From NCBI RefSeq assembly GCF_010731695.1, contig NZ_AP022586.1, positions 5,022,001-5,086,000 of the forward strand: a stretch of DNA of 64,000 nucleotides, given 5' to 3'. The DNA is from Mycolicibacterium litorale (GTDB lineage: Bacteria > Actinomycetota > Actinomycetes > Mycobacteriales > Mycobacteriaceae). Both the position numbers and the translations under genes were made by a program. The notes below the pieces were generated by a model. The model saw only the letters and a program-made list of their open reading frames with translations, was not told where the DNA came from and searched no databases. Within the stretch, counting starts at the first letter, position 1, and every line of letters starts with the position of its first letter. Below are positions 43,038 to 56,870 of this stretch, piece by piece.

Positions 43038-43307
43038 CTAGGCGCGACCTCCCGCGGTCCTGCCGTAGCGGCGATGGAACTTCTCGACCTGACCGGCAGT
43101 GTCGAGGGTGCGCCGCGATCCCGTCCAGAACGGGTGCGACGCCGCGCTCACGTCGACGACGACCAGGGGATAGGTGCGGACTCCGTCGGGGGTCTCCCAC
43201 TCGATCGTTCTGGAACTGGTGATGGTCGACCGGGTCAGGAAGGCATCACCGGTCAGCGCGTCCTGGAACACCACCGGGTGGTAGTCGGGGTGGATGCCGG
43301 GCTTCAT
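43038..43307 (-). CDS. rpmE2: Zinc-independent ribosomal protein bL31 (type B)
   Basis: An 89-residue L31 paralogue without any cysteine, hence the zinc-free C-minus form that replaces zinc-binding L31 when zinc is scarce. The family start [16 protein letters not shown] and [21 protein letters not shown] segments are clear. An AAGGAGAT ribosome site is present, and the ATG overlaps the upstream CobW-like gene's stop (ATGA). Type B L31 is Zur-controlled in other actinobacteria. Confidence 0.95.
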
Positions 43308-44497
43308 CGTCGATCTCCTTCTCCGCGTAGCGAGTTGGTGGGGGCGGTCTCGTCGAGCTGGTCGCACGGATCTTCGTGCCAGTCGCCGAACGGGTCGTCG
43401 TACGCGGTCCACGTCTCGGGCCGGGCCAGCTCGTCGTCGGTCAGCAGCGCACGCGACAGCACGCGCTCGACAGCCTTCGGCTCGGCGCCGCACACCAGGA
43501 CGGTCAGCGCGATGTGGCGGTCGCCGAAGCGCTGATCCCACTGCAGCGCCGCGAGTGCGACGCGTTCCGGTGCGGCATAGGCCCTCTGGTGCTGGTCCAT
43601 GGCCGCGAGCCACCGACCGGCGTGGCCGACGTGCAGACCGCCGCCTGCCGATTCGATCCACACGACCGCATCGGGCTGGCTGGCCAGCCAGGCACGGCCG
43701 CGGATGCGCACCACGCCGTCGAGGAGGTCGTCGATCGCCTGATGGAGGCGCTCGGGGTGGAACGGGCGGGCGGCGTTGAACTCGACGATCGTCACGTCGC
43801 CGTCGGCGCGCAGCGGCGGTTCGCCGGCCAGCAGCGCATCGTGCGGGTTGTGCCCACGTCCGCGCCGCGCATCGGGTTCGAGGTTGGCCAGGGCGGTGGC
43901 GAGTCGGTCCGTGCCGACGGTGATCCGCGCCCGCGGTGAAAGCCGGCGCAGCACGGCCAGCGTCCGACGGTCCGGTTCGGTGAGTACCAGCACGTCGGCG
44001 AATTCGGCCTGGCCGACGACCACCTGGGCGACGGTGCGGTTGTCGTCGAGGTCGTCGTCACCGAGCGCCTGGGCGAGCCAGACGGCGACGTCCACGGTCG
44101 TCACCACCGCTTCGATGGACACGTCGCGGGCGGCCGGTCCGTCGATGTGACCGGGGCCCACGTGGACCGCGACGTTGTCGATCGCCCAGCACACGGGTTC
44201 CGGTTCGAGCCAGGGTGCGAGCTGCACGACGATACGGGTGACGTCGTCGCGGTGGTGCAGCAGGCGCAGCAGTACCAGCAGGTCGTTGCGCGTCGTGCAG
44301 CCCACGCATCCCTTGGTGAGTTCCAGCGGCCATTCCGAGATGAGTGTCCGGCCGTCGCGCTGGGTGGCGACGGTGCGGACCACCACCTGACCGTCGAAGC
44401 GGTGGCTGATCACCACGGTCCCGGGGGCCGCCATCAGGACGTCGCACACCGCGTTCGACTGACCCTGCCCGGCAACGACGATCACCGGAGTCCGCAT
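43304..44497 (-). CDS. mrf: Degenerate CobW/COG0523-like protein, probable MRF ribosome-hibernation adaptor
   Basis: A 397-residue protein with CobW/COG0523 layout: an N-terminal P-loop-like strand ([13 protein letters not shown]), a GCVGCT motif where true COG0523 GTPases have CxCC, and a CobW C-terminal domain (about 235-375) ending in an acidic Asp/Glu/His tail. The Walker A Gly-Lys-Ser/Thr is absent, so GTP hydrolysis is unlikely. In M. smegmatis the protein encoded with the zinc-independent ribosomal genes is MRF, which recruits the hibernation factor MPY to ribosomes; I infer this is its orthologue from position. A Zur-type palindrome lies 16 nt before the start. Confidence 0.72.
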
Positions 44498-44512
44498 CGC
44501 TTCCTCCCACTG

Positions 44513-44529
44513 TTGAGAATCATTTTCAA
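44513..44529. promoter_or_regulatory. Zur box 1 (mrf-rpmE2 side)
   Basis: TTGAGAAT, C, ATTTTCAA: a 17-bp palindrome with 7 of 8 arm positions matching, close to the actinobacterial Zur consensus. It lies 16 bp upstream of the minus-strand mrf start, where bound repressor would block the promoter. Confidence 0.85.
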
Positions 44530-44567
44530 TAACCGGCTGCCTACGCTACAGTCCCGATCGAGCGTTG

Positions 44568-44584
44568 TCGAAAACCGTTTTCAA
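44568..44584. promoter_or_regulatory. Zur box 2 (rpmB2 side)
   Basis: TCGAAAAC, C, GTTTTCAA: a 17-bp palindrome with 7 of 8 arm matches, 19 bp before the rpmB2 start and 38 bp from box 1 start to box 1 end side. Zinc-loaded Zur here would repress the zinc-independent ribosomal genes. Confidence 0.85.
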
Positions 44585-44603
44585 TTACTTCGGGAGGAAC
44601 CTC

Positions 44604-44840
44604 ATGTCCGCGCACTGCCAGGTCACCGGCCGCTCGCCCGGCTTCGGTAATCGGGTGTCGCATTCGCACCGTCGTACGCGACGGCGCTGGGACCCCAACA
44701 TCCAGACCAAGACCTACTACGTGCCGTCCGAAGGCCGGCGGGTCACGCTGCGCGTGAGCGCCAAGGGGATCAAGGTGATCGATCGCGACGGCATCGACGC
44801 CGTGGTGGCGCGCATCCGCCGAAAGGGCGTGAAGATCTGA
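44604..44840 (+). CDS. rpmB2: Zinc-independent ribosomal protein bL28
   Basis: A 78-residue L28 paralogue. Where the zinc form has two CxxC pairs, this one starts [13 protein letters not shown] with a single cysteine and has none later, so it cannot form the zinc site. The [17 protein letters not shown] core is conserved. A GGGAGGAA ribosome site precedes ATG 44604. First gene of a four-gene cassette under Zur box 2. Confidence 0.94.
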
Positions 44841-45004
44841 TGGCGCGCAACGAGATCCGCCCGATCGTCAAGCTCAAGTCCACCGCGGGAACCGGGTACA
44901 CCTACGTCACCCGCAAGAACCGCCGCAACGATCCGGACCGTCTGGTGCTGAAGAAGTACGACCCCGTGGTGCGGCGCCATGTCGACTTCCGCGAGGAACG
45001 CTGA
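44840..45004 (+). CDS. rpmG2: Zinc-independent ribosomal protein bL33
   Basis: A 54-residue L33 paralogue lacking all four zinc cysteines; the conserved [19 protein letters not shown] core is present. The start shares its A with the rpmB2 stop (TGATG), and the stop likewise overlaps the rpsN2 start, so the cassette is translationally coupled. Confidence 0.94.
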
Positions 45005-45309
45005 TGGCGACGAAGGGCAAGATCGCCCGCAACGAGCACCGGCGGCGGCTGGTCGCACGGCACGCCGAACACCGCGCCGAACTCAAAGACGTCATCCGCA
45101 GACCGTCGTCGTCCGCGGCGGAGAAGGCCGCCGCGATGGCTGCGCTGCAACGGCTTCCTCGAGATGCCAGTCCGGTACGGCTGCGCAACCGCGATTCCGT
45201 CGACGGCCGTCCGCGCGGGCACCTGCGCAAGTTCGGGCTGTCCCGCGTCCGGGTCCGTGAGATGGCGCACCGCGGTGAGTTGCCCGGTGTGCGGAAAGCG
45301 AGTTGGTGA
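45004..45309 (+). CDS. rpsN2: Zinc-independent ribosomal protein uS14
   Basis: A 101-residue long-form S14 without the CxxC pairs of the zinc-binding form. The C-terminal [35 protein letters not shown] tail is the classic S14 signature. Coupled to rpmG2 by one shared base. Confidence 0.94.
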
Positions 45310-45313
45310 GTCG

Positions 45314-45574
45314 ATGGCTAAGAAGAGGGCACCGAAACGACGGACGCCGCTCAAGGAACCGGTGCGGCAGAAGCGCAATCCCCTCACCGCGCGCGGGGTG
45401 ACGACGATCGACTACAAGGACACCGCGCTGCTGCGCACCTTCATCTCGGAGCGCGGCAAGATCCGGTCCCGCCGGGTGACCGGCCTGACGCCCCAGCAGC
45501 AACGGCAGGTCGCGGTGGCGATTCGCAACGCCAGGGAGATGGCGTTGTTGCCGTTCGTCGAGGATCGTCGCTAG
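45314..45574 (+). CDS. rpsR2: Zinc-independent ribosomal protein bS18
   Basis: An 86-residue S18 paralogue without cysteines; the [22 protein letters not shown] core is characteristic. Last gene of the cassette; its stop overlaps that of the convergent MFS gene by 3 nt, leaving no room for a separate terminator. Confidence 0.94.
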
Positions 45575-47969: not shown

Positions 47970-48611
47970 CTAGTGCCGGATCGACGCGTCGAGATCGACG
48001 CGGTGATCGGCCGCGCTGACCACCCCGGCGTCGTGGGTGGCGGCCACCACCGTCGTCCCCGCCGCGGCGAACCGGCGCAGGTGGCCGATCACCATGGCGC
48101 CGGCCGCGTTGTCGAGCCCGGTGGTCGGCTCGTCGAGCAGCAGCAGCGGCGCCTGCTGGGCGAAGGCCTGGGCGAGCAGCACCCGCTGGCGCTGCCCGCC
48201 GGACAGTTCGCCCAGGCTTCGATGCCGCAGCGCGGTCAGTCCGAACTCCTCGAGCCACTGGTCGACCACGGCGTGATCGGCACGGGTCGGGCGCCGCAGC
48301 AGGCCCAGTCGCCGCCACCGGCCCATCATCACCGCCTCCGCGGCGGTGATGGGGAACGTGTCGGTGACGTGGCTGCGCTGGACGGCGAGCGCGACGTTTG
48401 CGGTGCCCGTCTCGACCGTGCCCCGGACCGGCCGAAGCACACCGGCGAGCAGTCCCAGCAGCGTCGACTTCCCCGCACCGTTCGATCCGGTGACCGCGGT
48501 CAGCGCACCCGGAGTGATCGACACGTCGAGATCCCGGAACACCTCGGTGGCGGGGTAGCCGAACGCGATCCCGCGCACGGCGATCGCGGTTCTCGGCGGC
48601 GCCGCCGTCAT
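47970..48611 (-). CDS. aztA: Zinc ABC transporter ATP-binding protein AztA
   Basis: A 213-residue ABC ATPase: Walker A GSNGAGKST, signature LGELSGGQRQR, Walker B LLLLDEPTTGLD and the switch His in ATHDAG. It matches the ATPase of AztABCD-type zinc importers and lies divergent to the permease, with a Zur box between. ATG 48611 is chosen; ATG 48635 would put coding sequence in the Zur box. Confidence 0.85.
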   Translation of the reverse strand: MTAAPPRTAIAVRGIAFGYPATEVFRDLDVSITPGALTAVTGSNGAGKSTLLGLLAGVLRPVRGTVETGTANVALAVQRSHVTDTFPITAAEAVMMGRWRRLGLLRRPTRADHAVVDQWLEEFGLTALRHRSLGELSGGQRQRVLLAQAFAQQAPLLLLDEPTTGLDNAAGAMVIGHLRRFAAAGTTVVAATHDAGVVSAADHRVDLDASIRH

Positions 48612-48618
48612 CCGTCTG

Positions 48619-48635
48619 TTGAAAATGGTTTTCAT
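48619..48635. promoter_or_regulatory. Zur box 3 (aztA / permease-fusion divergent promoter)
   Basis: TTGAAAAT, G, GTTTTCAT: a palindrome with 6 of 8 arm matches and a TGAAAATGGTTTTCA core, 7 bp from the aztA start and 21 bp from the permease start. One operator could control both directions. Confidence 0.82.
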
Positions 48636-48655: not shown

Positions 48656-50632
48656 ATGACCTACTGGCTGACCGCACCGTTCGAGGCCGACGTCGTCGTG
48701 CGAGCCTTGGCGGCCGGCGTCATCGCCGCCTGCCTGTGCGCCCCCGTCGGATGTTGGGTGGTGTTGCGCGGCAGCGTGTTCCTGGGCGACGCGATGACCC
48801 ACGGCATGCTGCCCGGCGTCGCGCTCGCGGCCCTGCTGGGTGCGAATGTGCTCGTCGGCGGCTTCCTCGCGGCGGTGGCGATGGCGGTCGGCGTGGCCGC
48901 GGTGGGCCGATCGTCGAAGCTCTCCTCGGACACCAGCATCGGGCTGCTGCTCGTCGGCATGCTCGCACTCGGCGTGGTGATCGTCTCCAGGTCGCAGAGT
49001 TTCGCCGTCGACCTCACCGGATTCCTGTTCGGTGACGTGCTGGCCGTCCGCACCGGCGATCTGGTCACGCTGGGCGCCGCGCTGGCCGTCACCCTCGCGG
49101 CGGTGCTGGTCGGTCACCGCGCGTTCGTGGCGGTCACATTCGACCCGCGCAAGGCCACCACGCTCGGCCTGCGTCCCGACCTCGCGATCCCCGCACTCAC
49201 CGTGTTGGTGGCGATCGCGATGGTCGCGTCGTTCCACGTCGTCGGCACGCTGCTGGTACTGGGCCTGCTCATCGCCCCGCCGGCAACGGCCCTGCTCTGG
49301 GCGCGGTCGATTCCGCGGGTGATGGTGCTGGCCGCCGTGATCGGTTGCGTCGCGGTGTATCTCGGTCTGCTCATCTCCTGGCACGCCGATACGGCGGGCG
49401 GCGCGACGATCGCGGGTGTCGCGGTGCTGATGTTCTTCGCCTCGACGGTCGCCAGGCGGATCGTCGCCGCGTGGAAGCCGGTGACCGCGGTCGCGGCGTC
49501 GGCATGCTTCGTGGCGGGGTGCTCCGGTGGGGCCACCGAATCCCCGCAACCGCCCGCCGTAACCGGGGGAGACGAGGTCGTGGTCGAGGGGGCGCGCGAA
49601 CTCGACGGACCGCTGACGCGTCTGGTCCTCGTCGATCCGGCGTCCGGGGCGACAGCGGTCTACGACGCCGTCGACGAAACCGAGACTCCCATCGGCGATT
49701 TCGGGCCGGTAACGTCGATCGACGACGACGGCCGCTTCGCGTACCTGCGGACCGGCGCACGCACCACGATCGTGGACGCCGGCGCATGGACCTTCGACCA
49801 CGGCGACCACTACCACTACTTCGCCACCGAACCCGCGGTCGCCGGAACCCTCGACGTGCCGGCAGCCTCGGTCAGCGCTAACAACTCGGTGGCTGCGGTC
49901 GAGACCACCGGGGGTGCCGTCGAGGTGCTCGACCGGGAACGCCTCGGCCGACGGGCGGTCGAGACGACCGGGGTCGACGGCGACGTCGCCGCCGCGGCAC
50001 CGCTCGGCAGCCGCCTCGTCACGGTCGACCCGGCCGGCCGGGTGCGCGCCACCGCCGACGGCGAGACGATCGATGTCGACGCCCGGTGTCCCGGCGTCAG
50101 CTGGGCGATGGCGTCGCGCCGTGCGGCGGTGTTCGGTTGCGCGACAGGTGCACTGCGGGTCGCGGGCGGCGATGGCACGCCGACCGCGACGACGATCCCG
50201 TACCCAGCGGATGCGCCCGCCCAGCGGCCGGCCACCGTGACCCACCGCGACCGCGCCGACGTCTTCGCCGGCATCGCCGCCGGCCACGTGTGGGTGCTCG
50301 ACAGCAGGCAGCGGTCCTGGGTCCTCATCCCGGCCCCGGACGCGGTGGCGGTGAACACCGCCGGGGACGGCACGGTACTCGTCCTGCACCGCGACGGCAC
50401 CCTGGCCGCCGTGGACGTGACGACCCGCTCCGAGACCGCGCGCATCCCGTTGCTCGACGGCGTGCGCCCCGACGGCCCGGCCCCGGTCGTCGAGATCGAT
50501 TCCGACCGCGCGTATGTGAACAACGCCGCGGCGCGCGAGGTGTACGAGATCGACTACGCCGACGGGCTGCGCATCGCGCGTACGTTGCGCACCGAGGTGT
50601 CACCGGGCCTGATGGTCGAGGCCGGCCGGTGA
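48656..50632 (+). CDS. aztB: Zinc ABC permease AztB fused to an AztD-like beta-propeller
   Basis: A 658-residue fusion. Residues about 1-272 form an ABC-3 (ZnuB/AztB) permease with 8-9 membrane segments. Residues about 276-289 look like a signal-peptide core with a lipobox (VAGC, Cys289). Residues about 290-658 form a YncE/AztD-type propeller that resembles the free AztD downstream (shared CPG...GC..G.L block and HG[DE]H motif, here His382 and His385 with His387). The reading frame is continuous with no stop at the junction; an in-frame GTG at 49481 could allow separate initiation. A start at GTG 48647 is possible. The stop overlaps aztC (GTGA). Confidence 0.8.
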   Translation: MTYWLTAPFEADVVVRALAAGVIAACLCAPVGCWVVLRGSVFLGDAMTHGMLPGVALAALLGANVLVGGFLAAVAMAVGVAAVGRSSKLSSDTSIGLLLVGMLALGVVIVSRSQSFAVDLTGFLFGDVLAVRTGDLVTLGAALAVTLAAVLVGHRAFVAVTFDPRKATTLGLRPDLAIPALTVLVAIAMVASFHVVGTLLVLGLLIAPPATALLWARSIPRVMVLAAVIGCVAVYLGLLISWHADTAGGATIAGVAVLMFFASTVARRIVAAWKPVTAVAASACFVAGCSGGATESPQPPAVTGGDEVVVEGARELDGPLTRLVLVDPASGATAVYDAVDETETPIGDFGPVTSIDDDGRFAYLRTGARTTIVDAGAWTFDHGDHYHYFATEPAVAGTLDVPAASVSANNSVAAVETTGGAVEVLDRERLGRRAVETTGVDGDVAAAAPLGSRLVTVDPAGRVRATADGETIDVDARCPGVSWAMASRRAAVFGCATGALRVAGGDGTPTATTIPYPADAPAQRPATVTHRDRADVFAGIAAGHVWVLDSRQRSWVLIPAPDAVAVNTAGDGTVLVLHRDGTLAAVDVTTRSETARIPLLDGVRPDGPAPVVEIDSDRAYVNNAAAREVYEIDYADGLRIARTLRTEVSPGLMVEAGR

Positions 50633-51534
50633 TCCGACGGTGCGTCGCGTGGATACTCACCCTCAGCGTCGCCGCACTGACCGCCTGTGACACAACACCA
50701 TCGGCGCGCGAGATCATCGTCACCACCAACATCATCGGTGACGTCGTGCGCAACGTGGTCGGCGACACCGCACCCGTACGGGTGCTGATGCAGCCGAACG
50801 CCGACCCGCACTCGTTCGCGCTCTCCGCGCAGGACGCGGCCGCGCTGTCGACCGCGAGTCTGATCGTCTCCAACGGCCTCGGCCTCGAGGAGGGCATCGC
50901 CCGGCACGTGCAGACCGCGGCCGAGGACGGGGTGCCGACACTGGCCGTCGGTGACCGCATCGATCCGATCCGCTACACGCAGGGCGACTCCGCCGGTGCA
51001 CCGGATCCGCACTTCTGGATGGACCCCCGGCGCATGATCGCCGCCGTCGACGCCGTGGCGGAGACCGTCAGCCGCGAGGTCGAGGGCATCGACGCCGCGG
51101 CCGTGGACCGCAACGCCGAACGCTATCGCGAGCAACTGCGGGCGCTCGATGCGTCGATGTCCCAGCAGTTCACCGGGATCCCGGCCGATCGCAGGAAGCT
51201 CGTCACCAACCACCATGTGCTCGGCTACCTCGCCGACCGGTTCGGTTTCGCGGTCGTCGGTGCGATCGTGCCGAGCGGCACCACACTCGCCGCGCCGAGT
51301 TCGTCGGACCTGCAGTCGCTGGTGTCGGCCATCCGATCGGCGCGGGTGCCCGCGATCTTCGTCGATTCGTCACAGCCCGAGCGGTTGGCGCGGGTGCTGG
51401 CCGAACAGGCCGGGGTCCGGGTGCGGATCGTCGCCCTCTACACCGAATCCCTCAGTGCGCCTGGCACACCCGGCGCCACCTACCTCGACATGATGCGCGC
51501 CGACACCGACGCCATCGTCAACGGCCTGCGCTGA
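50629..51534 (+). CDS. aztC: Zinc-binding lipoprotein AztC
   Basis: A 301-residue ABC cluster 9 substrate-binding protein with a lipobox (LTAC, Cys20). Probable zinc ligands are His61 (ADPHSF), His128 (DPHFWMDP), His195/196 (NHHVLGY) and Asp246 (VDSS). The long His-rich loop of E. coli ZnuA is absent, as in AztC, which receives zinc from AztD. GTG start overlaps the fusion gene's stop. Confidence 0.9.
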   Translation: MIRRCVAWILTLSVAALTACDTTPSAREIIVTTNIIGDVVRNVVGDTAPVRVLMQPNADPHSFALSAQDAAALSTASLIVSNGLGLEEGIARHVQTAAEDGVPTLAVGDRIDPIRYTQGDSAGAPDPHFWMDPRRMIAAVDAVAETVSREVEGIDAAAVDRNAERYREQLRALDASMSQQFTGIPADRRKLVTNHHVLGYLADRFGFAVVGAIVPSGTTLAAPSSSDLQSLVSAIRSARVPAIFVDSSQPERLARVLAEQAGVRVRIVALYTESLSAPGTPGATYLDMMRADTDAIVNGLR

Positions 51535-51566: not shown

Positions 51567-52739
51567 ATGAACAGTCAGCGGTGGATGTACCGCGTCGGCG
51601 CGGCGACCGCCACGGTGGCCGCACTGGCGGCGTGTTCGGACAGCGGTTCGCCCGCACCGCAGGCGCAGGCCCAACCCGTCAACGAGCCCCTGGTCGCCAC
51701 GTACGACGGCGGGCTCTACGTCCTCGACGGTGAGACGCTCGAGGTCGAGCAGGACATCCCGCTCGACGGCTTCCTGCGGGTCAATCCCGCCGGCGACGAC
51801 GCCCACGTCCTGGTCACCACCGACGAAGGATTCCGCATCCTCGACGCTGCCCGCGGACAACTGACCGACCACACGTTTCCCGCCGCCGACGCCGGCCACG
51901 TCGTGAACCACGGCGAACACACCGTGCTGTTCGCCGACGGGTCGGGTGAGATCACCGCCTTCGATCCGCACGCGCTGGAGAACGGCGGGCTGCCGGAGAC
52001 CGAGACGTTCACGACGCCGCAGGCCCACCACGGGGTGGCGGTGATCCTGTCCGACGGCACCCTGGTGCACAGCATCGGCGACTCCGAGAAGCGCACGGGG
52101 GCCGTGGCGATGCAAGGTGGTCGCGAGATCGCCCGCAGCGAGGAATGCCCCGGCATCCACGGCGAGTCGGTGGCCGCCGACGAGGTGGTCATCCTCGGGT
52201 GTGAGAACGGCGTGCTCGAGTACGCGAACGGAAAATTCACCAAGATCCCGAGCCCGACGCCCTACGGGCGGACCGGGAACACCCGCGGCCACGAGGATTC
52301 GGCCGTGGTGCTCGGTGACATGAAGGTCGATCCGGACGCCGAGTTGGAGCGCCCGCAGCAGTTCGCGCTGATCGACACCGCCACCGACCGGCTCGAGGTC
52401 GTGCAGATGCCACCAGCGGTGAGTTACTGGTTTCGGTCGCTGGGCCGGGGTCCGCAGGCCGAAGCACTGATCATGGGGACCGACGGAAAGCTCTACGTGT
52501 TCGACCCGGTCACCGCGGACATGGTCAAAGCCGTTCAGGTGACGCAGCCGTGGACCGAGCCGGACGATTGGCAGGACCCCGCCCCCGCGGTGTTCACCCG
52601 CGAGGACGCGGTCTACGTCACCGATCCCGCGGCCAAGCAGATCCACCTCGTCGACCTGCAGGCCGGGACCGTCACCGCGTCCGCGACGCTCGAACAGGCA
52701 CCGAACGAGCTCAGTGGCCCCGTCGGCCACGATCACTGA
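51567..52739 (+). CDS. aztD: Zinc metallochaperone AztD
   Basis: A 390-residue lipoprotein (lipobox LAAC, Cys23) with a beta-propeller of YncE type. Histidine motifs at likely zinc sites: HVVNHGEH (111-118), AHHG near 168, CPGIHGE near 200, and a terminal GHDH. In Paracoccus AztD hands zinc to AztC in the periplasm. A GAAGGAGCG ribosome site supports ATG 51567 over GTG 51549. It lies 32 nt after aztC. Confidence 0.9.
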   Translation: MNSQRWMYRVGAATATVAALAACSDSGSPAPQAQAQPVNEPLVATYDGGLYVLDGETLEVEQDIPLDGFLRVNPAGDDAHVLVTTDEGFRILDAARGQLTDHTFPAADAGHVVNHGEHTVLFADGSGEITAFDPHALENGGLPETETFTTPQAHHGVAVILSDGTLVHSIGDSEKRTGAVAMQGGREIARSEECPGIHGESVAADEVVILGCENGVLEYANGKFTKIPSPTPYGRTGNTRGHEDSAVVLGDMKVDPDAELERPQQFALIDTATDRLEVVQMPPAVSYWFRSLGRGPQAEALIMGTDGKLYVFDPVTADMVKAVQVTQPWTEPDDWQDPAPAVFTREDAVYVTDPAAKQIHLVDLQAGTVTASATLEQAPNELSGPVGHDH

Positions 52740-54302: not shown

Positions 54303-55247
54303 GTGATCCTCAGCCCCCGACGTCTCCTGGTCGCCGGCCTCGCGGCCACGGTCCTTTCGTTCGTGACCGTCGCATGCTCGGGTGGAGAGCAGCCCGCCCC
54401 CACCGCGCAACCCAGCGGGGACTGCCCGGCGGAGCCGCTGTCGGTGGTGGTGAGCGTCGACCAGTGGGGCAGCATCGTCTCCCAGCTCGCGGGCGAGTGC
54501 GCCACCGTCAACACCGTGGTCTCCGGGTCCTCCGTCGATCCCCACGACTTCGAACCCGCCCCCAAGGACGCGGCACTGTTCGAGGACGCGCAGTTGATCG
54601 TCGTCAACGGCGGCCACTACGACGAGTGGGCCACCAAACTGGCCGCCGGATCGGCGCCGGACGCCCCGGTGATCGACGCGGTGGAGCTCAGTGGCGGCGC
54701 CGCGCACGCCGAGGAGTCCAACCCGCACGTCTGGTACAACCCCGCCGCGGTCACCGCCGTCGCCGATGCGGTCACCGCCGAATTCGCCAAGCTGGCCCCG
54801 GCCGCCGAGGACTACTTCACCGAACGACACGCGGAATTCGGGGATTCGCTCGCGACCTACCACCAGATCGTCGGCTCACTGAAGGCCACCGCCGGCGGTA
54901 AGACCTACGCCGCCACCGAGAGCGTCTTCGACGAGATGGCCGCAGCCGTCGGGTTGGTCAACCGCACCCCGCCCGGCTACCAGGCCGCCGCCGCACATGA
55001 GAGCGACCCGTCGCCCGCCGACCTCGACGCGTTCCTGCGGCTGCTGGGAGATCGCGGGGTCGACGTGCTGATCTACAACGTGCAAACCGAAGGGTCGGTG
55101 CCGCAACAGATCCGGGCCGCCGCCGAACAGGCCGGTGTGCCCGTCGTCGAGGTGACCGAGTCCATGCCGCCCGGCGCCGACTCGTTCGAGTCATGGCAGG
55201 TCGGCCAACTCTCCGCGCTGGCCGAGGCGCTCGGTGTCGGCGGCTGA
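54303..55247 (+). CDS. znuA: Zinc ABC transporter substrate-binding lipoprotein
   Basis: A 314-residue ABC cluster 9 binding protein with a lipobox (VTVAC, Cys25). His81 (VDPHDFEP) and His142 (NPHVWYNP) are conserved zinc ligands; a HAEE segment stands for the usual loop. It belongs to the ZnuA group found with AmidABC-like mycobacterial zinc systems. It overlaps the ATPase gene by 14 nt. Confidence 0.9.
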   Translation: MILSPRRLLVAGLAATVLSFVTVACSGGEQPAPTAQPSGDCPAEPLSVVVSVDQWGSIVSQLAGECATVNTVVSGSSVDPHDFEPAPKDAALFEDAQLIVVNGGHYDEWATKLAAGSAPDAPVIDAVELSGGAAHAEESNPHVWYNPAAVTAVADAVTAEFAKLAPAAEDYFTERHAEFGDSLATYHQIVGSLKATAGGKTYAATESVFDEMAAAVGLVNRTPPGYQAAAAHESDPSPADLDAFLRLLGDRGVDVLIYNVQTEGSVPQQIRAAAEQAGVPVVEVTESMPPGADSFESWQVGQLSALAEALGVGG

Positions 55248-56007
55248 GCCGGCGCTGACGTTCCGCGGCGTCAGCGTCGTCCGGGGCCGTCGCACGGTCT
55301 GGTCGCAGGCTGACTTCGACGTGCCCGCGGGCGGGGTCGTCGCGGTCATCGGCAGCAACGGGGCCGGTAAGACCACGCTGCTGCAGGTGGTGCTCGGCCT
55401 GCTCACCCCCGCCACCGGCCGGGTCGAGGTGTTCGGGAAGCCGCCGGGTGCGCTCAACGGCCAGATCGGTTACGTGCCGCAGAATTACGGGTCGAACCCG
55501 GGCGAGGCCGTCCGCGCCCGCGATGCGGTCATGCTCGGCCTCAATGGGCACCGCTGGGGGCTGGGGCTGGCCTCGCGGGAGGATCGTGCGCGCGTCGACA
55601 AGGTGCTCGCCGCCGTCGACGCGACGGCGTTCGCCGACCGAAGGCTCTCCCAGCTGTCGGGTGGGCAGCGCCAACGTGTCGCGCTCGCCGAAGCACTGGT
55701 CGGCCGTCCCAAGATGCTGATCCTCGACGAACCGCTGGCCGCGCTCGACATGCGCAGCCAGCACGAACTCGTCGCGCTCGTGAAGACCGTCAACGCCGAA
55801 TTCGGTGTCACCGTGCTGGTGGTCGCCCACGACCTCAACCCGCTGCTACCGATCCTCACCGGCGCGATCTACCTGCTCGACGGCCATCCGCACTACGACT
55901 CGCTCGACGGGGTGGTCGACGAGAAACTGCTCACCCACCTGTACGGCGCCGCGGTCGAGGTGGTGCACACCCCACAGGGTGATCTCTACGTGCGGAGGAT
56001 GCGGTGA
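55234..56007 (+). CDS. znuC: Zinc ABC transporter ATP-binding protein
   Basis: A 257-residue ABC ATPase with Walker A GSNGAGKTT, signature LSQLSGGQRQR, Walker B MLILDEPLAALD and switch His in VAHDLN. Located between the binding protein and permease of the same system and overlapping both. Confidence 0.92.
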   Translation: MSAAEPALTFRGVSVVRGRRTVWSQADFDVPAGGVVAVIGSNGAGKTTLLQVVLGLLTPATGRVEVFGKPPGALNGQIGYVPQNYGSNPGEAVRARDAVMLGLNGHRWGLGLASREDRARVDKVLAAVDATAFADRRLSQLSGGQRQRVALAEALVGRPKMLILDEPLAALDMRSQHELVALVKTVNAEFGVTVLVVAHDLNPLLPILTGAIYLLDGHPHYDSLDGVVDEKLLTHLYGAAVEVVHTPQGDLYVRRMR

Positions 56008-56870
56008 CCACGACCGTGGTGGCGCTGAGCTACCAGGACAACTGGTGGCAGATCCTCTCCTCCAGCTTCATGCGCAACGCGCTGGTGGGCGGCACCATCG
56101 TCGCGCTGGCCGCCGGGCTGATCGGCTACTTCGTCGTCGTGCGCAACACCGCGTTCGCCGCGCACGCGCTCGCCCACATCGGGCTGCCGGGTGCGACAGG
56201 CGCGGCGCTGCTCGGGCTGCCGGTGGTGTTGGGTCTCGGCGTGTTCTGCATCGGCGGTGCCCTGGTGATCGGGGCGCTGGGCAGACGGGCGGCCGACCGG
56301 GAGGTCGCGACCGGCACGGTGCTGGCGATGGCGACCGGCCTGGGCCTGCTGTTCAACTCCTTGGCGACCCGCAATTCAGGGACGTTGACGAACGTCCTGT
56401 TCGGCAACCTGCTGGCGATCACCGGCGAACAGATCGTGTCGTTCGCGGTGCTGCTCGGCGTGCTGGCGGCCGGCATCGGCGTGATCTACCGCCCGCTGTT
56501 GTTCACCTCCGTCAACGCCCAGGTGGCCGACGCGAAGGGGGTTCCGGTGCGCGGACTCTCGGTCGTGTTCATGGTGCTGCTCGGCCTGACGATCACGATG
56601 GCGGTGCAGGCGGTCGGGACGCTGCTGCTGTTCGCGTTGGTGGTGACGCCCGCCGCGGCGGCGATCATGCTGACCGCGCGGCCCGCGGCGGCGATTGCGC
56701 TGTCGACGGCGATCAACCTGGTGGCGGTGTGGGCCGGCCTCGCGCTGTCCGCGATGTTCAACGCCCCGCCCAGCTTCATCATCGTGACGATCGCCTGCGG
56801 TGTCTGGGCGGTCGTGTGGGCGGTCGAACGCGGGCTGCGTTCGTCTGCCGACCGCGTGCTGGTGACGTGA
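56004..56870 (+). CDS. znuB: Zinc ABC transporter permease
   Basis: A 288-residue ABC-3 family permease with about eight membrane segments, ending in a normal short basic tail, unlike the fused AztB upstream. Start overlaps znuC (GTGA). With znuA and znuC it completes a second zinc importer. Confidence 0.92.
   Translation: MTTTVVALSYQDNWWQILSSSFMRNALVGGTIVALAAGLIGYFVVVRNTAFAAHALAHIGLPGATGAALLGLPVVLGLGVFCIGGALVIGALGRRAADREVATGTVLAMATGLGLLFNSLATRNSGTLTNVLFGNLLAITGEQIVSFAVLLGVLAAGIGVIYRPLLFTSVNAQVADAKGVPVRGLSVVFMVLLGLTITMAVQAVGTLLLFALVVTPAAAAIMLTARPAAAIALSTAINLVAVWAGLALSAMFNAPPSFIIVTIACGVWAVVWAVERGLRSSADRVLVT

Follow-up and report, generated by a model that had tools for sequence, protein, structure and literature searches.

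The window analyzed here, a stretch of 64,000 nucleotides from Mycolicibacterium litorale, contains a zinc importer locus in which one gene, a single 658-codon frame at 48656–50632, encodes both an AztB permease and an AztD-like propeller, which we call X. The features of the locus, in window coordinates, are as follows.

47970..48611, minus strand: aztA, ATP-binding subunit, divergent from the fused gene; NCBIfam AztA, 236.6 bits, cut-off 220.
48620..48634: Zur-like operator TGAAAATGGTTTTCA, in the aztA–aztB intergenic region.
48656..49453, plus strand: AztB permease part, residues 1–266; nine membrane helices by our reading of the structure model.
49451..49522, plus strand: internal lipoprotein signal, consisting of a basic stretch, a hydrophobic core and a lipobox.
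49520..50632, plus strand: propeller X, residues 289–658, a putative AztD paralogue and predicted lipoprotein after cleavage.
49799..49816, plus strand: His382-x-x-His385-x-His387, predicted equivalent of the hairpin at zinc site 2 of AztD, with His replacing Asp104.
50629..51534, plus strand: aztC, zinc-binding lipoprotein; AztC, 376.8 bits, cut-off 350.
51567..52739, plus strand: aztD, a second propeller, with site 1 kept and the site-2 hairpin absent; 441 bits, cut-off 400.

The permease part matches the NCBIfam AztB family (NF040871) over residues 4–256 with 347.2 bits, above the curated cut-off of 280, and the neighboring AztA, AztC and AztD each score above their NCBIfam cut-offs. The aztA start was taken from the sequence as the ATG at 48611 (the listed open reading frame begins at 48677). 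On the other side, the GTG start of aztC, likewise read from the sequence, overlaps the TGA of the fused gene.

The first-pass annotation described a permease and a propeller in one frame with a lipobox at the join, and comparison with homologues confirms both: the same junction is present in the query and the best 120 of its 354 homologues, and the lipobox cysteine is found in all 121 of these fused proteins, which are related sequences. Among these 121 (the query and the best 120 of 354), 117 are longer than 600 residues and a few are shorter. The same annotation named a sequencing error, or a fusion confined to this assembly, as the finding that would undo its claim, and the fused homologues in relatives exclude this. 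An artefact of sequencing or annotation was thus rejected and has a negligible probability: the genome is a single contig and the junction recurs in the best 120 of 354 homologues, and nothing points to an artefact in the M. litorale gene itself, although frame breaks do exist in some relatives (G153 and L047). Among 198 genomes of the same genus, 30 contain a match at E ≤ 1e-30 and 22 contain both parts, which form one open frame in 19, separate genes in two and a broken frame in one. The break in relative G153 (loci L019/L125) lies near the last permease helix, and in M. monacense (P0101), which has the same junction stretch, the frame is open at that point. In Mycobacterium sp. IS-1496 (L047:4001-6898, also L016) the fused frame leaves X near its end and continues through aztC, giving 965 codons with a second internal lipobox; this is a draft assembly and the run-on may be an error.

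The segment that joins the two parts has the features of a bacterial lipoprotein signal, namely a basic stretch, a hydrophobic core (codons 276–288) and a lipobox, VAG-C, ending at Cys289 (codon 49520–49522), but it lies within the protein rather than at its N terminus. Across positions −24 to +15 around the junction in the 121 fused proteins (the query and the best 120 of 354 homologues), the cysteine is the sole invariant position, with position −1 occupied by G (108), A (12) or S (1), position −3 by V (79), A (26), L (13), I (2) or T (1), position +1 limited to A, S, G and T, and a hydrophobic core of 13–17 residues (median 14). A core of this size has the length of a lipoprotein signal and is short for a permanent transmembrane segment. 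In the 41 fused loci of the wider survey described below, the core spans 11–23 residues (median 13), compared with 12–20 (median 14) in the separate lipoproteins of split loci, and the cysteine codon is TGC in 26 and TGT in 15. A codon-position test across the junction gave no clear result, the basic stretch being too variable.

The charge distribution around this segment is strongly asymmetric, with an average of 3.39 Lys and Arg residues in the tail preceding the core vs 0.12 in the stretch aligned to residues 290–310. Most other permease loops obey the positive-inside rule, although the predicted outer loop at residues 112–132 carries 1.69 Lys and Arg vs 2.05 Asp and Glu. In the AlphaFold model the propeller has pLDDT values mostly above 90; part of the permease is weakly modeled, with low confidence at about residues 40–125, and the junction, residues 273–307, is below 50. 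Our reading of this model gives nine membrane helices, four of them after a conserved loop at residues 153–173. This helix order would place the permease C terminus inside and hence the propeller outside. Together with the charge pattern and general knowledge of type II importers, it suggests that the permease C terminus is cytoplasmic. Cys478 and Cys495 of X are invariant in 31 fused proteins and align with a cysteine pair of AztD, which suggests a fit with an outside location. An lspA gene is present in the genome.

One explanation of the junction is that the protein stays whole, its former signal being retained as an additional helix that is not cleaved and that tethers the propeller to its own permease. 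Some ABC importers do have substrate-binding domains tethered to the permease, and the fusion would place the chaperone beside the channel; moreover, of the 22 same-genus genomes that have both parts, 19 carry the fused form, and some loci (L080 and L110) have long linkers before the signal. A lasting tether, however, needs neither the cysteine nor a small residue at −1, yet among the query and the best 120 of 354 homologues the cysteine is present in 121 of 121 and position −1 is always G, A or S, while the core measures 13–17 residues rather than about 20. We therefore regard a permanently whole protein as unlikely. The longer linkers, rich in Gly, Pro and Ser, are found in four loci of one other genus (L076, L080, L082 and L110), whose fused proteins are 679–802 residues long where complete; L077 is the L110 locus in shortened form.

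Another explanation is that X is translated separately from an in-frame internal start, either GTG 49481 or an upstream codon such as one 32 positions before the cysteine. Of the 41 fused loci, 17 have a start codon at −32 and 11 have one at −13; GAAG lies shortly upstream of GTG 49481; and in 48 of 51 split relatives a possible lipoprotein start falls between −30 and +60 nt from the permease stop. Against this, any single position is common to fewer than half of the 41 loci, four of them have no in-frame start 15–45 codons before the cysteine that would give a basic n-region, a Shine–Dalgarno-like 4-mer is found in only three, and GTG makes up no larger a share of the Val codons there than elsewhere (0.41 vs 0.45). 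A scan of the 41 fused loci for a conserved internal translation start found none. A start at GTG 49481 would itself leave 13 residues before the cysteine, none of them basic, and with a start codon at this position in 11 of 41 fused loci the internal GTG start put forward in the first-pass annotation is weak. Separate translation of X is thus improbable. The three alternatives that the annotation offered (an intact fusion, release by signal peptidase II and an internal start) were well seen, and it is release from a polyprotein that the data favor. Indeed, since a lasting tether needs neither the cysteine nor a small −1 residue, and no internal start is conserved, a polyprotein that would be lipidated and cleaved is the favored reading of the junction.

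The distribution of the fusion was followed in 93 actinobacterial loci, of which 41 are fused and 52 are not. This set is a selection from all matches, drawn from genus and order samples and named contigs, with no more than 30 loci taken from each search and a further 40 regions chosen mostly from homologue matches; L085 (the same place as L001), L091 and L096 (permease incomplete) and rows with identical permeases were left out. The frame-broken L019 was counted as split in the tree and omitted from the 51 split loci used for spacing counts. By a permissive pattern, a lipobox is present in all 41 fused and all 52 split loci. A single clade of all fused genes is rejected on the permease tree (p-AU 1e-38), as is a single clade of the 10 nonmycobacterial fused genes, and the signal is preserved although the fused state is not one clade. 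At least four changes between fused and split forms are forced by well-supported branches, and the most economical count is seven; because the tree was built quickly from a single protein and has many weak branches, the number of changes is uncertain. The fusion may have been lost in some lineages and gained in others: the mycobacterial group, in which 31 of 34 rows are fused, also contains the split loci L022 and L050 (M. wolinskyi). In six further mycobacterial loci, L051–L056 (M. houstonense, septicum, senegalense, porcinum, setense and Mycobacterium sp. URHD0025), the genes for X and AztD are adjacent, an AztB match is absent from the stretch examined, and a distant AztC/ZnuA-type protein comes after them.

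These data bear on whether the fusion is a tolerated accident of gene overlap that provides only coexpression, with the lipobox kept because X must be a lipoprotein. Of 51 split loci, 48 have the lipobox cysteine no more than 150 nt from the permease stop (median 68), and 48 have a possible start between −30 and +60 nt from that stop, with an overlap in 34, so that a small change can fuse the genes; the interchange of the two forms on the tree, including the split L022 and L050 within the mycobacterial group, points the same way. That 31 of 34 mycobacterial-group rows are fused suggests, on the other hand, a state that is not harmful and is perhaps favored. We put such an accident at somewhat below an even chance, and it is compatible with the polyprotein reading because it also requires a cut.

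What X contributes is suggested by comparison with AztD. The first-pass annotation called the propeller AztD-like; this holds for the fold, which X shares with AztD, but not for its being the AztD of the system, as aztD itself lies two genes downstream. X scores 43.7 bits against AztD (NF038015), below the cut-off of 400, and two Streptomyces X proteins score 72.5 and 45.3; the assignment of X as the system's AztD was rejected in view of the full-scoring AztD (441 bits) downstream. AztD is also present in all 17 X genomes checked, with best matches of 374.8–513.9 bits, above the cut-off in 15. In a propeller tree of 102 of the 148 aligned propellers (near copies thinned and L134, a truncated AztD, omitted), the X rows form one clade, and X and actinobacterial AztD fall in separate clades. 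Judged by sequence, X is a second, unnamed, divergent AztD paralogue that is predicted to carry the other zinc site.

The Paracoccus AztD (P. denitrificans structures 6ck1 and 6cmk) has two zinc sites, of which only site 2 transfers zinc to AztC (PMC6689063). We aligned the sites in 95 X rows, 48 rows of actinobacterial AztD, several of which share a genome, and five nonactinobacterial AztD-like proteins. The nonactinobacterial proteins have the site-2 hairpin ligands in five of five and all three site-1 histidines in four of five. Actinobacterial AztD has the site-1 histidine triple in 47 of 48 rows, the remaining row being cut, but the hairpin is deleted and its histidines are found in none of the 48. 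All 95 X rows carry the site-2 hairpin, as HxxHxH where AztD has HxxHxD (His for Asp104), and this hairpin is invariant in the 31 fused proteins; all three site-1 histidines are found in 3 of 95 rows and are absent from M. litorale X. The three site-1-bearing rows (L115, L120 and L123) group with L114, which lacks the site, in a branch of four rows placed as sister to the remaining 68 X rows of the tree, and by sequence they resemble an intermediate stage that has survived with both sites present. Collectively, these sequence patterns suggest that the two zinc sites of AztD have been divided between actinobacterial AztD (site 1) and X (the site-2 hairpin). The partition is not clean: a C-terminal histidine, which belongs to site 2 in Paracoccus, is present in 37 of 48 actinobacterial AztD rows though the hairpin is lost, and in none of the 93 complete X rows, whose last residue is R in 81 (L077 and L016, cut or run on, being omitted from this count). 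As X keeps the hairpin of site 2, the only site shown to transfer zinc to AztC in Paracoccus, the predicted zinc-passing half would be made together with the permease.

The same component is found outside the fusion. On two Streptomyces plasmids aztB and aztC flank a stand-alone X gene annotated as "hypothetical protein". A search with Streptomyces X gave 1046 matches at E ≤ 1e-8, and in the best 120 of these the names are mostly "hypothetical protein" or "lipoprotein", 118 have a lipobox-like stretch near the start, 117 have the HxxHxH pattern, and a pattern search for the site-1 HHG motif found it in none. By the same kind of search among the 121 fused proteins (the query and the best 120 of 354 homologues), HxxHxH is present in 115 of the 117 proteins longer than 600 residues and HHG in none of the 121.

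The motif TGAAAANNRTTTTCA occurs once in the genome, in the aztA–aztB intergenic region, and shuffled versions of the window yield 0.00 Zur-like operators at up to two mismatches. By hand count, the operator matches 23 of 24 positions of the mycobacterial Zur consensus as given in the accessible part of PMC7174638. Genes of the kind associated with zinc starvation lie nearby, at 43304–45574 (an MRF recruiter GTPase on the minus strand and alternative-kind L28, L33, S14 and S18 genes), and two weaker Zur-like sites, with two mismatches each, are found at 44514 and 44569. A second metal ABC transporter (binding protein, ATPase and permease) at 54303–56870 scores below the Azt cut-offs and is likely the counterpart of mycobacterial ZnuABC.

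Comparison with the AztABCD system of Paracoccus denitrificans shows the same gene set, with M. litorale AztA, AztC and AztD above the cut-offs and AztB present as a domain. M. litorale adds a fifth component, X, fused to AztB, and its zinc sites appear split between X and AztD, whereas a Paracoccus versutus plasmid carries separate aztA, aztB and aztC genes and one two-site aztD. OpuA and GlnPQ are ABC importers whose permease carries fused substrate-binding domains, and like them the M. litorale protein has a predicted extracytoplasmic binding domain in the permease chain; the fused part here is a chaperone rather than a substrate-binding protein, and it has a conserved lipobox. The Bradyrhizobium fbcH product, a cytochrome b/c1 polyprotein cut at an internal signal peptide by signal peptidase I, likewise combines a membrane and an exported subunit in one chain, but for the M. 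litorale fusion an Lgt/LspA route is proposed. The streptococcal AdcA, a ZinT–ZnuA fusion according to the consulted part of PMC6689063, also joins a zinc-binding accessory domain to a part of its own importer, in that case to the binding protein and not to the permease.

The M. smegmatis ZnuABC2 system (MSMEG_6049-6052) is, from the kinds and order of its genes, very probably the same system. In the sections of the ZnuABC2 literature at hand, it is described as Zur controlled and clustered with alternative ribosomal protein genes, MSMEG_6051 is labeled a "pseudo ABC transporter transmembrane protein", and a fusion, a lipobox and an AztD paralogue go unmentioned (PMC7174638, PMC13098993). A search of open-license literature, mostly titles and the beginnings of abstracts, found no AztB fusion or internal lipobox, and no X-like component among the first 15 of 10,065 matches. 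Thus, the parts are of known kinds, and the arrangement is new as far as the open-license literature shows.

We favor, with a probability of about 0.6, the reading in which the fused gene encodes a polyprotein that Lgt and LspA would split into AztB and a zinc-passing lipoprotein X, the chaperone halves being X and AztD. Translation would first yield AztB, which would end on the cytoplasmic side after its last helix; a complete lipoprotein signal comes next and would reenter the membrane, placing the propeller outside. Lgt would lipidate Cys289 and LspA would cut before it, giving, in a 1:1 ratio, AztB with a short extra C-terminal segment and membrane-anchored lipoprotein X. The calculated mass is 67 kDa for the uncut chain and about 38 kDa for the predicted mature propeller. 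As the site-2 half of an ancestral two-site AztD, X would hand zinc to AztC, which would deliver it to AztB/AztA, and the separate AztD, having retained site 1, may act as a store or serve a different acceptor. The lipidation and cleavage at Cys289, like the zinc binding and transfer by X, we infer from conserved sequence features. The fuller proposal, that an Lgt/LspA-split polyprotein has arisen more than once and links production of a zinc channel to that of the zinc-passing half of a site-divided chaperone, seems to us slightly better than an even bet.

The interest of the locus lies elsewhere than the first-pass annotation placed it: in the division of a chaperone, with the half that presumably passes zinc produced along with the channel, and in a strongly conserved internal lipobox. 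If the reading is correct, an internal signal within a polytopic protein can be processed by signal peptidase II, and this would happen in natural genes of many species that are easy to test. The X family is large and its names are mostly generic; a widespread zinc importer thus seems to have a component that has gone without a name. Finally, actinobacteria appear to place the two zinc sites of AztD on separate proteins, which would provide a natural experiment on the roles of these sites.
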